From a virus, in the IMG/VR virus record IMGVR_UViG_3300025435_000098, positions 1-23,063 of that record: a stretch of 23,063 nt of DNA, one strand, 5' to 3'. Shown here piece after piece: positions 274-4,017 of the stretch. Below the pieces are notes generated by a model. That model was not told the DNA's origin, did not search any database, and worked only from the letters and a program-made list of their open reading frames with translations. Position numbers and translations under genes: made by a program. Numbering within the stretch: the stretch's first letter is position 1; each line of letters opens with the position of its first letter.

Positions 274-453
274 ATGGCTAAAAATTGGATTCAAAACGCA
301 ATTAAAAAACCCGGTGCTTTAAAAAAAGAATTGGGTGTACCTGCTGGTAAGACGATTCCTGCAAAGAAGCTAGCCGCCGCTGCAAAAAAACCCGGGAAAG
401 AGGGGCAGCGTGCGCGTTTGGCTGAGACACTCAAAGGTCTGAAGAAAAAATAA
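274..453 (+). CDS. Small basic phage protein (59 aa)
   Basis: ATG at 274 and TAA at 451-453 give 59 residues. The protein is very rich in Lys and Ala (starting MAKNWIQNAIKKPGALKKE and ending TLKGLKKK) with no membrane segment or cysteine. I recall near-identical small proteins beginning with a similar NWIQ.AIKKPGALKK pattern in many environmental and enterobacterial phages, always hypothetical, often near lysis or tail genes. Its stop overlaps the ATG of the following gene by one base (TAATG), indicating translational coupling. The charge would allow nucleic-acid or membrane-surface binding, but no function is established. Confidence 0.8.
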   Translation: MAKNWIQNAIKKPGALKKELGVPAGKTIPAKKLAAAAKKPGKEGQRARLAETLKGLKKK

Positions 454-1000
454 TGGATCCAATCACCATCTTTGCGGCGTGTAAAGCAGCTCACGCAGGG
501 ATTCGTGAGTGCATTGATCTATACCAAGACTTCAAGAAAGATGGCAAAGAAGTCGGTGATATTGTCAATGATATTGGCAGTCACCTTGGTGCGTTCTTTA
601 CCCATCAAGAGTCGTTCAAGGAAGCTGAGAAAGAAGCCAAGAAGAACCCGCTGCCCAAGAATATCAGTATCAATGAAGAGGCGATGAACAGAATTTTGCG
701 CCAACAACAGATTGAGCAGATGGAAACTGAACTTCGTGAGATGATCATATATCAGGTTGGAATGCCCGGTCTTTGGTCAAAATTCACAGAAATGCGCGAA
801 ATTGTGCGAAAAGAGCGAGAAAAAATCGAGCGTGAAGAAAAAAAGCCCGCGAGCTGGTTGCGCTTAAACGCAGACAATTTATTGACAAGTGGAAGATTAG
901 AGTGGCTTTGGCTACGGGCTTGGTTACATGGCTATTTGTTTTCGCCGTACTCATGTATGGTGTTCATCTAGACTATCAACGCAGTAAGGGGATATTATGA
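453..1000 (+). CDS. Coiled-coil membrane protein made via an apparent -1 frameshift
   Basis: The zero frame (453-971, 172 aa) starts MDPITIFAACKAAHAGIREC, followed by charged helical sequence and a coiled coil at about residues 80-131. After codon 131 (position 845) the zero frame turns Trp/Leu-rich and atypical. The -1 frame instead reads ARELVALKRRQFIDKWKIR, then a hydrophobic segment (VALATGLVTWLFVFAVLMYG), then VHLDYQRSKGIL, and stops at 998-1000. That stop forms an ATGA overlap with the holin start at 997. The switch point is A AAA AAG at 839-845, in the correct phase for -1 slippage. The fused product would be 182 residues: a cytoplasmic coiled coil anchored by a C-terminal TM helix. 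I recall similar phage proteins ending near DYQRSKG. It lies directly upstream of the holin, so a lysis or membrane role is plausible but unproven. A lost A in the homopolymer is the alternative explanation. Confidence 0.75.
839..845 (+). other. Candidate -1 programmed ribosomal frameshift site (A AAA AAG)
   Basis: Relative to ATG 453 the codons read GAA AAA AAG, so the heptamer A AAA AAG lies in the X XXY YYZ phase used for -1 slippage in dnaX and in many phage genes. Slippage moves into the frame encoding a TM helix and a well-placed stop. Downstream structure is weak: a short hairpin TTGCG-CTTAAA-CGCAG at 858-873 includes a G-U pair. No strong internal Shine-Dalgarno-like sequence is seen upstream. 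Confidence 0.55.
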
Positions 1001-1497
1001 GCTGGATTGAATCAATTTGCCCTACATTGGCTACCTGTTTAGCTGGCCCGCTCGCTGGCATGGCGGTTGAGGCAGTTTCTAAAGCCATAGGGGTTGACCC
1101 TAGTGAAGTGCAGAACACGATTAACTCTGGCAAGATGACCGCCGACCAGATTGCTTCACTCCAAACCGCTGAGATTGCCCTAAAAGCCAGAGCGCAAGAG
1201 ATGGGGCTAGACTTTGAGAAGTTGGCTGTAGCAGACCGCACAAGTGCGCGTCAAATGCAAATCAGCACCAATAGCTTTATACCGCCCATTCTTTCTATCA
1301 TGATTGTGGTGGCATGGTCGGCAGTGCAGTATTTTCTATTGACCCATATTATTGACCCGTCCATGCGTGAGTTGATTGCCCGTGTGCTGGGTACGCTTGA
1401 TGGTGCGTTGATGTTAGTCCTTTCGTTTTACTTTGGATCGTCCAGTGGTTCACAAGCCAAGGACACAATGATCCACAACTCAACACCTACAAAGTGA
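997..1497 (+). CDS. Holin, 3-TM (GTA/phage holin) family
   Basis: A 166-residue protein with a hydrophobic N-terminal segment at about residues 9-27, a cytoplasm-like charged middle (KARAQEMGLDFEKLAVADRT), and two clear membrane helices at about 94-117 (FIPPILSIMIVVAWSAVQYF) and 130-147 (VLGTLDGALMLVLSFYFGSS). The C-terminal TLDGALMLVLSFYFGSS pattern is typical of the 3-TM holin family (PF11351-like). It would form lesions in the inner membrane that release the endolysin encoded immediately downstream. It starts in a 4-nt ATGA overlap with the -1-frame stop of the upstream gene. Family assignment is from recognition of the pattern and the TM layout. Confidence 0.82.
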   Translation: MSWIESICPTLATCLAGPLAGMAVEAVSKAIGVDPSEVQNTINSGKMTADQIASLQTAEIALKARAQEMGLDFEKLAVADRTSARQMQISTNSFIPPILSIMIVVAWSAVQYFLLTHIIDPSMRELIARVLGTLDGALMLVLSFYFGSSSGSQAKDTMIHNSTPTK

Positions 1498-1503
1498 CCC
1501 GAA

Positions 1504-1935
1504 ATGACCCAATTAACCAAACACTTTTCGCTCGAAGAGCTGACACACACAGATCACAGAAACTTGGAGAACATACCAAATGCAGATGAAACCCATAATC
1601 TTTACCGCCTTGCCCAATTTCTGGAGCAGGTTAAGTTCGTGCTGGGCGACGTGCCGATCATGGTTAACAGCGCGTTTCGGTCAAAGGCCTTGAATGACGC
1701 AGTCGGCTCAAAAGATTCCAGCCAGCATAGGGTGGGCTGCGCATGCGATTTTCGTGTACCCGATATGACTCCAAATGAGGTCGTTCAAAAAATCATAGCA
1801 TCCCAGCTAGACTACGACCAAGTAATCCGTGAGTTTGATCGCTGGACGCACATATCCATCCCAAATAAAGAAGGCGATAAGCCTAGACGGATGGCGCTTA
1901 TCATTGATAAAATGGGTACAAGGAAATATGCTTAA
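1504..1935 (+). CDS. Endolysin, peptidase M15A family
   Basis: A 143-residue protein with the zinc-peptidase signature of M15 enzymes: SQHRVGCACD at residues 73-82 (H75 and D82 as zinc ligands) and WTHIS at 114-118 (H116 as third ligand), with E110 as the likely catalytic base. SAFRS at 57-61 is the usual motif preceding the SxHxxGxAxD motif. M15A enzymes cleave peptide cross-links in peptidoglycan. There is no signal peptide, so export depends on the adjacent holin. Length matches small phage M15 endolysins with no separate cell-wall binding domain. The start is 6 nt after the holin stop; the ribosome site is weak, suggesting reinitiation. Confidence 0.88.
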   Translation: MTQLTKHFSLEELTHTDHRNLENIPNADETHNLYRLAQFLEQVKFVLGDVPIMVNSAFRSKALNDAVGSKDSSQHRVGCACDFRVPDMTPNEVVQKIIASQLDYDQVIREFDRWTHISIPNKEGDKPRRMALIIDKMGTRKYA

Positions 1936-1938
1936 TCT

Positions 1939-4017
1939 ATGGGCGTCATACAAAAAATCACCTTTAAGCCGGGAATTAATCGGGAGAACACTCGTTTCTT
2001 TACTGAAGGCGGGTGGTATGAAAGCCAGTGGGTGCGGTTTCGCCAAGGTAGCCCGGAAAAAATAGGTGGTTGGACGCAGTATTCGGTCAATACATTTTTA
2101 GGTGTTTGCCGTTCTTTATGGAATTGGATTACGCTTGCTAATCTTAACCTAGTCGGCGTAGGCACAAACTTAAAGTACTACCTCACTTACGGCACAAGCT
2201 ATTTTGATATAACCCCCATTAGATCAACGGTAACGTTGGGTACAAACCCCTTTGCTACGGTACTTAATTCGCCCATAGTTACGGTTACGGCCACAGCAAA
2301 CGGCGCTTTCATCAATGACTTTGTGACTTTTAGTGGTGCTACGGCAGTTGACGGCTTGATGATCAATGGCCAATATCAAATTGTTTCCACACCAACAAAT
2401 AACACTTTTACTATCAATGCGGGATCAAACGCAACGTCCACAACAACTGGCGGTGGTAGCTCTGTCGTAGCTGCATTCCAAGTCAATACTGGCCCTGCTA
2501 CACAAACGCCGTTCAATGGTTGGGGTGCGGGTGCTTGGGGTCTTGGGCCTTGGGGTACAGGCCAAACCGTTAAGAATAATCTGCAGATATGGAATGCTTT
2601 TAATTTTGGCGAAAACTTGATTTTTGGCCCCCGTGGTGGTGGGATTTATTATTGGACAGCTTCAAGCGGAGTTAGTACTAGGGGTGTGGCGCTTAACACC
2701 ACAGGTGGCACGGTTACTATTACGATAGCATCTCCAGCAGTTGTGACATCCTTAGTCACTTTAACCAACAACAGTTCTATTCAGCTAGGCACGACTGGGG
2801 CTCTGCCGACTGGCTTATCAACTAGTACCACATATTACGTTGTCAATTTATCAGGCACGTCGTTTAATCTAGCTACGACAATAAATGGTTCCCCCATTAA
2901 TACCAGCGGTTCACAGTCGGGCGTGCAGTCTATAGCGCTCCTCATGGACGTGCCGTTGTACCAGAATGTACTTCAGATTTCAGACGCGTCGAACTTCGTG
3001 CTTGTTTTTGGCACTAACCCAATTGGCCAAACTTATTTAGATCCCCTGCTTATTCGTTGGTCTGACCAGCAAAATCCGTTGGTATGGTATCCAGATATTA
3101 CCAATCAAGCAGGCGATGTGCGCTTATCCCACGGCTCACAGATAGTTACTACTGTCCAAACCCGCCAAGAGATTGTGACTCTTACAGACCAAGCAGTTTA
3201 TTCACTGCAGTATCTTGGCCCTCCGTATGTTTGGGGCGTGCAGTTGCTCAGTGAAAACACATCTATTATTGGCCCCAATTCGGCTACGCTTGCTTCCGGT
3301 GTTGTGTACTGGATGGGTGTGGATAAGTTCTATATGTACGATGGTCGGGTACAGACGCTTAATTGTGATCTACGTCGATACATATTTCAAAACATTAACC
3401 AGCAACAAAACCAACAAGTCTACTGTAGTACGGTAGAAGGCTTTAATGAAGTCTGGTGGTTCTACGTATCAGGTACTAGCGAACAAGTTAATAGCTATGT
3501 TGTTTATAACTACATTGAAAAAACATGGTATTACGGCTCTATAGGCAGGACTGCTTGGCTGGATACTACGCTTCAATCTAATCCAATTGGTGCAACCTAC
3601 AACGGCTATTTGTGTAACCAAGAAAGTGGTCTTGACAATAATGAAACGGGAACTGCCACAGCTATTGACGCTTATATATCTTCTTCTGAATTTGATATTG
3701 GGGACGGGGATCATTTTGCATTTATTTCTAAGGTACTGCCTGACTTAACGTTTGAAAATTCAACTGCAACATCGCCGACTACAACGATGACCATTCAATC
3801 GCTAATAAACTCAGGGTCAGGCATCTCTACCAATCAAACAAGTCCTAATCCTGTATATAGCGTCGACATCAATGGTAACCCTGAGACTTTTACTGGGTAT
3901 GTGTATACCCGCATCAGGGGTCGTCAGTTTATATTCAAGATGGAATCTAACCAAGTCGGCACAACTTGGCAGCTCGGCGCACCGCGTTTTGAAATTAGAC
4001 CGGATGGGCGTAGATAA
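1939..4017 (+). CDS. P22 gp10-like tail / packaged-DNA stabilisation protein
   Basis: A 692-residue protein. The N-terminus (ITFKPGINRENTRFFTEGGW and later PEKIGGWTQY) resembles the family of phage tail accessory proteins related to P22 gp10, which close the portal channel. P22 gp10 is about 470 residues, so this one is longer. Extra material includes two Thr/Ser/Gly-rich beta segments at about residues 110-170 and 245-325 (for example TTYYVVNLSGTSFNLATT), which look like inserted Ig- or fibre-like domains. The C-terminal half has repeating aromatic beta strands (VYWMGVDKFYMYDGR, EVWWFYVSGT) consistent with a beta-propeller. It follows the endolysin by 3 nt and overlaps the next start by 1 nt. 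The gp10 link is from pattern memory, not a search. Confidence 0.6.
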   Translation: MGVIQKITFKPGINRENTRFFTEGGWYESQWVRFRQGSPEKIGGWTQYSVNTFLGVCRSLWNWITLANLNLVGVGTNLKYYLTYGTSYFDITPIRSTVTLGTNPFATVLNSPIVTVTATANGAFINDFVTFSGATAVDGLMINGQYQIVSTPTNNTFTINAGSNATSTTTGGGSSVVAAFQVNTGPATQTPFNGWGAGAWGLGPWGTGQTVKNNLQIWNAFNFGENLIFGPRGGGIYYWTASSGVSTRGVALNTTGGTVTITIASPAVVTSLVTLTNNSSIQLGTTGALPTGLSTSTTYYVVNLSGTSFNLATTINGSPINTSGSQSGVQSIALLMDVPLYQNVLQISDASNFVLVFGTNPIGQTYLDPLLIRWSDQQNPLVWYPDITNQAGDVRLSHGSQIVTTVQTRQEIVTLTDQAVYSLQYLGPPYVWGVQLLSENTSIIGPNSATLASGVVYWMGVDKFYMYDGRVQTLNCDLRRYIFQNINQQQNQQVYCSTVEGFNEVWWFYVSGTSEQVNSYVVYNYIEKTWYYGSIGRTAWLDTTLQSNPIGATYNGYLCNQESGLDNNETGTATAIDAYISSSEFDIGDGDHFAFISKVLPDLTFENSTATSPTTTMTIQSLINSGSGISTNQTSPNPVYSVDINGNPETFTGYVYTRIRGRQFIFKMESNQVGTTWQLGAPRFEIRPDGRR

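Follow-up and report, generated by a model that had tools for sequence, protein, structure and literature searches.

The window, by which we mean the whole of the 23,063-base virus record examined here, carries an open reading frame at 453-971 that is followed by a holin-like gene and an endolysin gene. The features of this locus are listed below with the evidence for each.

453-845, plus strand: shared N-terminal domain, 131 codons in the zero frame, predicted to be helical with a charged, coiled-coil-like end
828-835, plus strand: GAGCGTGA, a frozen 5′ element and candidate Shine-Dalgarno-like stimulator (silent-site freezing, anti-Shine-Dalgarno pairing)
839-845, plus strand: slippery heptamer A_AAA_AAG, the putative -1 shift site, identical in every scored locus of at least 70% identity
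845-1000, plus strand: -1 frame tail, 51 codons and the stop TGA (998-1000), predicted to give a 182-amino-acid shifted product (pN/pS 0.36, homology to in-frame C-termini)
846-971, plus strand: zero-frame tail, 41 codons and the stop TAG (969-971), predicted to give a 172-amino-acid unshifted product (pN/pS 1.07)
855-876, plus strand: 3′ hairpin, weak in the window, with the family hairpin region at 850-885 (codon-preserving energy tests)
902-958, plus strand: transmembrane (TM) helix predicted within the -1 tail (the window's 19-residue Kyte-Doolittle maximum is 2.15)
986-991, plus strand: AAGGGG inside the -1 tail, judged from its sequence to be where ribosomes likely bind for the holin-like gene
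997-1497, plus strand: holin-like membrane protein (phrog_1544, E 9e-15; 46% identical to a MW202701 protein annotated as holin)
1504-1935, plus strand: endolysin, peptidase M15 (PF08291, E 8.5e-17; phrog_894 endolysin, E 4e-33)

The A run occupies 838-844 and is followed by a G at 845, and the zero-frame codons at this point are GAA (837-839), AAA (840-842) and AAG (843-845), which places A_AAA_AAG at 839-845 in the X_XXY_YYZ phase, as the original prediction had held. The main open reading frames of the window comprise 7509 codon pairs, and the heptamer is in phase in this one place only. Reading in the -1 frame from 845 gives ARELVALKRRQFIDKWKIRVALATGLVTWLFVFAVLMYGVHLDYQRSKGIL, a basic linker followed by a TM helix, and the stop codon of this frame (998-1000) overlaps the ATG of the holin-like gene (997-999) as ATGA (997-1000); the charged linker, TM helix and stop-start overlap foreseen for this frame are thus all present.

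The surroundings of the gene are similar in its relatives. Of 64 loci, 55 have a holin-like gene downstream, 58 have an M15 endolysin and nine have Rz/Rz1-like genes, and in some clades the next gene is a lipoprotein or Rz instead of the holin. The profile phrog_1544 is itself listed in PHROG as of unknown function, and the name holin is taken from the MW202701 annotation and from position. The N-terminal domain of the frameshift protein matched phrog_32327, also of unknown function, weakly (in the window at E 6e-6; in the alignment, 28 of its 34 members match, the best at 1.4e-9), while Pfam, PDB-sequence and BFVD fold searches gave no informative match for the protein. No holin or antiholin family was matched in the Pfam or PHROG profiles, and the link to lysis is the neighbourhood. 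A structural model of the in-frame homologue L155 was all helix (mean pLDDT 70), with one helix at 111-199 running through the TM. An i-spanin (Rz) identity was considered and rejected, because nine loci carry separate Rz/Rz1-like spanin genes; the TM is moreover C-terminal, not N-terminal.

Further small genes were seen in these regions. In the window, 274-453 encodes a small protein that is basic and rich in lysine, contains A_AAA_AAA twice in phase and weakly matches phrog_20603, and 62-271 encodes a small protein with a C-terminal TM, similar to those that precede some distant relatives (L082, L083 and L086). In L146, an Rz-like i-spanin (3057-3539) with an embedded, out-of-frame Rz1-like lipoprotein (3262-3507) lies just downstream of the frameshift gene. 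A small Cys-rich lipoprotein (CQDPDHFND...C), recurrent in the lysis modules of these relatives, follows the frameshift gene or its in-frame relative in L139 (3057-3224) and L083 (4830-5033).

As an alternative to a programmed shift, a one-base deletion error in the seven-A run had been proposed, to be judged from homologues: exact conservation of A7G would point to programming and an in-frame A8 to an error. We scanned IMG/VR with the first 131 residues as the query, which returned 127 relatives, of which 80 were kept; AAAAAAAG was present in all 80, its phase being altered in L069 by an upstream indel. After further scans, the run was in phase in 167 loci, corresponding to 71 unique sequences with the window included. 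Among loci with at least 70% N-domain identity, 168 of 168 (about 72 distinct sequences) keep exactly A7G and none has A8, and a recount made without an assumed run length found no other lengths in this set. The run is in the expected phase in 164 of these loci (69 unique) and out of register in four (three unique), an upstream indel being observed in L069 and L149. These locus counts include duplicates fetched in more than one scan, the unique sequences being the fair number, and overstate independence because the sequences are related within clades. The contigs that bear A7G derive from many separate metagenomes, and since the run is uniform across them, a deletion error cannot explain it, contrary to the proposed alternative. 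The fact that every close relative keeps A7G argues that the frame break is a programmed signal, not an error. Nor was any close homologue found with an uninterrupted frame; the uninterrupted ones are at most about 50% identical and branch outside the frameshift clade. The single-base indels of L069 and L149 lie within the N-domain, upstream of an intact A7G, and reflect either error or decay.

Selection on the two sides of the site was compared in 42 representatives of less than 96% identity (median pairwise nucleotide identity 72%). Upstream, pN/pS in the zero frame was 0.14 over the last 57 codons; downstream, the -1 frame gave 0.36, against 1.04-1.07 for the zero frame and 1.83 for the +1 frame, showing that the -1 frame is coding beyond the site, as in a -1 frameshift cassette. 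The zero-frame tail is 26, 29, 30, 35 or 41 codons long depending on the clade; every -1 tail includes a TM and is 50-55 codons long. Together, the pN/pS values and this pattern of tail lengths indicate that the -1 tail is selected and that the zero-frame tail is seemingly incidental. The 19-residue Kyte-Doolittle maximum is at least 1.99 in the -1 tails of all 42 representatives (range 1.99-2.56), compared with at most 1.12 in the zero-frame tails, and since the latter are insufficiently hydrophobic for a TM, a soluble-like, TM-less zero-frame product is plausible. Residues rich in K/R precede the TM helix and the N-terminus is predicted to lie in the cytoplasm, suggesting that the N-domain of the shifted form would be cytoplasmic and tethered by a single TM.

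The codons leading into the site (GAG CGT GAN CAA AAA AAG) have frozen silent sites. GAG (828-830) and CGT (831-833) are identical in 42 of 42 representatives despite their degeneracy, and among conserved degenerate columns of the final 60 codons, those in which one codon accounts for 100% are confined to -1 (AAG), -2 (AAA), -3 (CAA), -5 (CGT) and -6 (GAG), the CAA column encoding Q in 40 of 42 and E in the other two. Five codons upstream, at -11 to -9, a further E-R-E motif is found whose codons vary, unlike those of the copy at the site. The pairing of GAGCGTGA with the 3′ end of 16S rRNA is imperfect, with a bulge, and has a mean energy of -8.5 kcal/mol, the strongest of the local profile; among synonymous alternatives, its median rank was 4% in the family and only 24% in the window.

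The description of the downstream hairpin as weak fits the window, where it folds to -6.2 kcal/mol, but does not fit the family, whose mean is -10.6. When the 36 bases lying about 5 to 40 after the site were subjected to codon-preserving energy tests, the family value of -10.6 compared with -5.9 ± 0.48 in synonymous shuffles (0 of 200 as strong) and with -7.7 ± 0.33 when codons were permuted within columns (0 of 300), whereas the following 36 bases, used as a control, were without a clear folding effect (12 of 100 shuffles as low). These tests replaced RNAalifold, which found no consensus pairs in the family because the hairpin register slides, with clades pairing in different registers. A 3′ structural stimulator is therefore seen at the family level, weak in the window and without a fixed-register consensus.

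The N-domain and the TM are encoded in one frame in L155 (about 50% identity) and in L158-L164 (about 40%), as well as in Limnohabitans phage DC31, Roseobacter phages CRP-345 and CRP-5, and MW202462, and the -1 TM tail is homologous to the in-frame TM tail of these distant relatives. Since the distant relatives are built in this way, the TM-bearing form is probably ancestral. In L155 and L158-L164 the protein also continues beyond the TM, with a C-terminal segment that bears two conserved cysteines and that the frameshift clade lacks. A scan of GTDB genomes found no relatives. A further group (L150-156 and L165-171) has A9G in place of A7G and retains the TM tail in the -1 frame; its zero-frame codons are CAA AAA AAA AGG. 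It has neither a strong hairpin nor the frozen GAGCGTGA, so the candidate 5′ and 3′ stimulators are not universal. In trees built with and without the tail, the branch parting frameshift from in-frame genes had support values of 86/87 and 89/87, and the A9 clade was nested within A7, with moderate support and some long branches. The simplest reading, which is not proven, is that frameshifting was gained once and that the site then changed to A9. Given that nine A residues are long enough for transcriptional slippage (PMC5009743), the mechanism may have changed in this group, making it a candidate for a switch from ribosomal to transcriptional slippage. At L107 (2501-3060), an N-domain 89% identical to that of the window is joined to a -1 tail like those of the A9 clade, which likely reflects recombination at or near the shift site.

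Sequence comparison supports the site, a coding role for the -1 frame, the silent-site constraint, the hairpin and the ancestry, and we consider it highly probable that -1 programmed ribosomal frameshifting yields the TM form of the gene. Ribosomes would translate 131 codons up to the in-phase A_AAA_AAG; those that do not shift would complete the 172-residue protein, with its unselected tail and no TM, while others would slip back by one base, probably aided by the upstream Shine-Dalgarno-like GAGCGTGA and the short 3′ hairpin, and make the 182-residue protein with a basic linker and one TM helix, terminating at the holin-like start codon. In evolutionary terms, one clade of freshwater phages would have brought an ancestral single-frame TM protein under the control of frameshifting.

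Other accounts of the frame break fare much less well. That it is a one-base deletion arising in sequencing or assembly, or the mark of a decayed pseudogene, gains something from the proneness of homopolymer runs to error and from the single indels found in the same gene in individual contigs (L069 and L149), but the uniform A7G of the scored loci at 70% identity or more, drawn from many separate assemblies, the purifying selection on the -1 tail and the frozen silent sites at the run make it extremely improbable, and for the clade as a whole it is already refuted. It is also unlikely, if less starkly so, that RNA polymerase slips on the A run and produces mRNAs with an extra A. Runs of nine A residues do slip efficiently in bacterial transcription, as stated in PMC5009743, and the derived A9G clade lacks the strong hairpin and the frozen GAGCGTGA; the clade of the window, however, holds its run at exactly seven, with the next G invariant as a reading of AAG requires, and its conserved candidate element for anti-Shine-Dalgarno pairing and its 3′ hairpin are of the kinds that stimulate ribosomal shifting. 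Scarcely any probability attaches to a tail assembly chaperone of the lambda G/GT kind, which shares the type of shift and its position near the gene end, since the neighbours here are holin-like, endolysin and Rz/Rz1 genes with no adjoining tape measure gene, the extension is a TM helix, and profile searches gave no match to a chaperone family; in the 64 loci the gene does not lie between the major tail and tape measure genes, and this candidate was rejected.

A different question is what the shift would be for, and here a rather unlikely answer, compatible with -1 frameshifting as the mechanism, is that it serves mainly in translational coupling: ribosomes that have shifted would terminate at the ATGA and begin again on the holin-like gene, in which case the efficiency of slipping would set the dose of holin and the zero-frame protein would be a by-product. 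The -1 stop overlaps the next ATG as ATGA or precedes it by at most 4 nt in 65 of 71 sequences, the zero-frame stop falls 26-86 nt short of the -1 stop, and slippage in Shigella spa13 offers a precedent in affecting spa32 (PMC5009743). On the other hand, the holin-like gene comes with an AAGGGG site of its own, other genes of the operon are packed equally tightly, the holin is not always the next gene, and the TM sequence is itself selected and is in frame in the outgroups.

Frameshifting as proposed here has its closest parallel in Escherichia coli dnaX, whose cassette combines A_AAA_AAG with a Shine-Dalgarno element and a stem-loop. The phage gene has the same in-phase heptamer and a 3′ hairpin, together with a candidate upstream element that could pair with the 3′ end of 16S rRNA; it differs in that the dnaX shift gives the short product whereas the phage shift would give the longer, membrane-anchored one, and in that its hairpin register is not conserved. 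As in lambda G/GT, a phage late gene would have two products with a common N-terminus, but the gene is unrelated, lies in a lysis neighbourhood without a tape measure gene, and has a TM helix as its extension. In E. coli copA, recoding likewise chooses between a soluble (chaperone) and a membrane (pump) product of one gene, although in that case it is the short soluble form that results from the shift, and the gene encodes a bacterial metal transporter. In Shigella spa13/spa32, the recoded extension also overlaps the start of the next gene, but the slippage is transcriptional and has a reported effect on that gene, whereas coupling in the phage gene is putative. The copA and spa13/spa32 comparisons, and in part that with dnaX, draw on the Atkins review (PMC5009743). 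The phrog_32327 family and the single-frame homologues in DC31, CRP-345 and CRP-5 share a homologous N-domain and C-terminal TM and lie near lysis or late genes, but have no frame break and are annotated only as hypothetical proteins.

The lysis neighbourhood suggests a role for the protein in lysis, a possibility to which we give somewhat less than even weight. Both products would accumulate, the N-domain would be cytoplasmic, and the pair would take part in lysis, for instance because the free form dilutes the anchored form or because termination by shifted ribosomes feeds translation of the holin. More doubtful still is the proposal that frameshifting switches a lysis-region protein between free and membrane-anchored states and that the ratio of the two, or the supply of ribosomes to the holin start, helps to time lysis, with recoding acting as a lysis clock.

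Phage frameshifts are described in tail, capsid and other genes in the available text of the Atkins review and of the PRFect paper (PMC10885494), and the conserved tailed-phage cases in the former are used for tail chaperones and for proteins of the capsid or tail. A membrane anchor added in the holin region does not appear in the available text of either paper, and our search of the open-licence literature, which is weak evidence on this point, turned up no phage in which frameshifting is described as adding a membrane anchor in the lysis region. In contrast to those conserved cases, the frameshift described here would add a membrane anchor to a lysis-region protein, and it is conserved across many freshwater phages. 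By implication, the gene would be mis-annotated as a truncated hypothetical protein wherever the zero frame alone is called. With single-frame outgroups, A7G genes with stimulators and A9G genes without them, the family would provide a natural comparison set for the origin of recoding sites and for changes in their mechanism.
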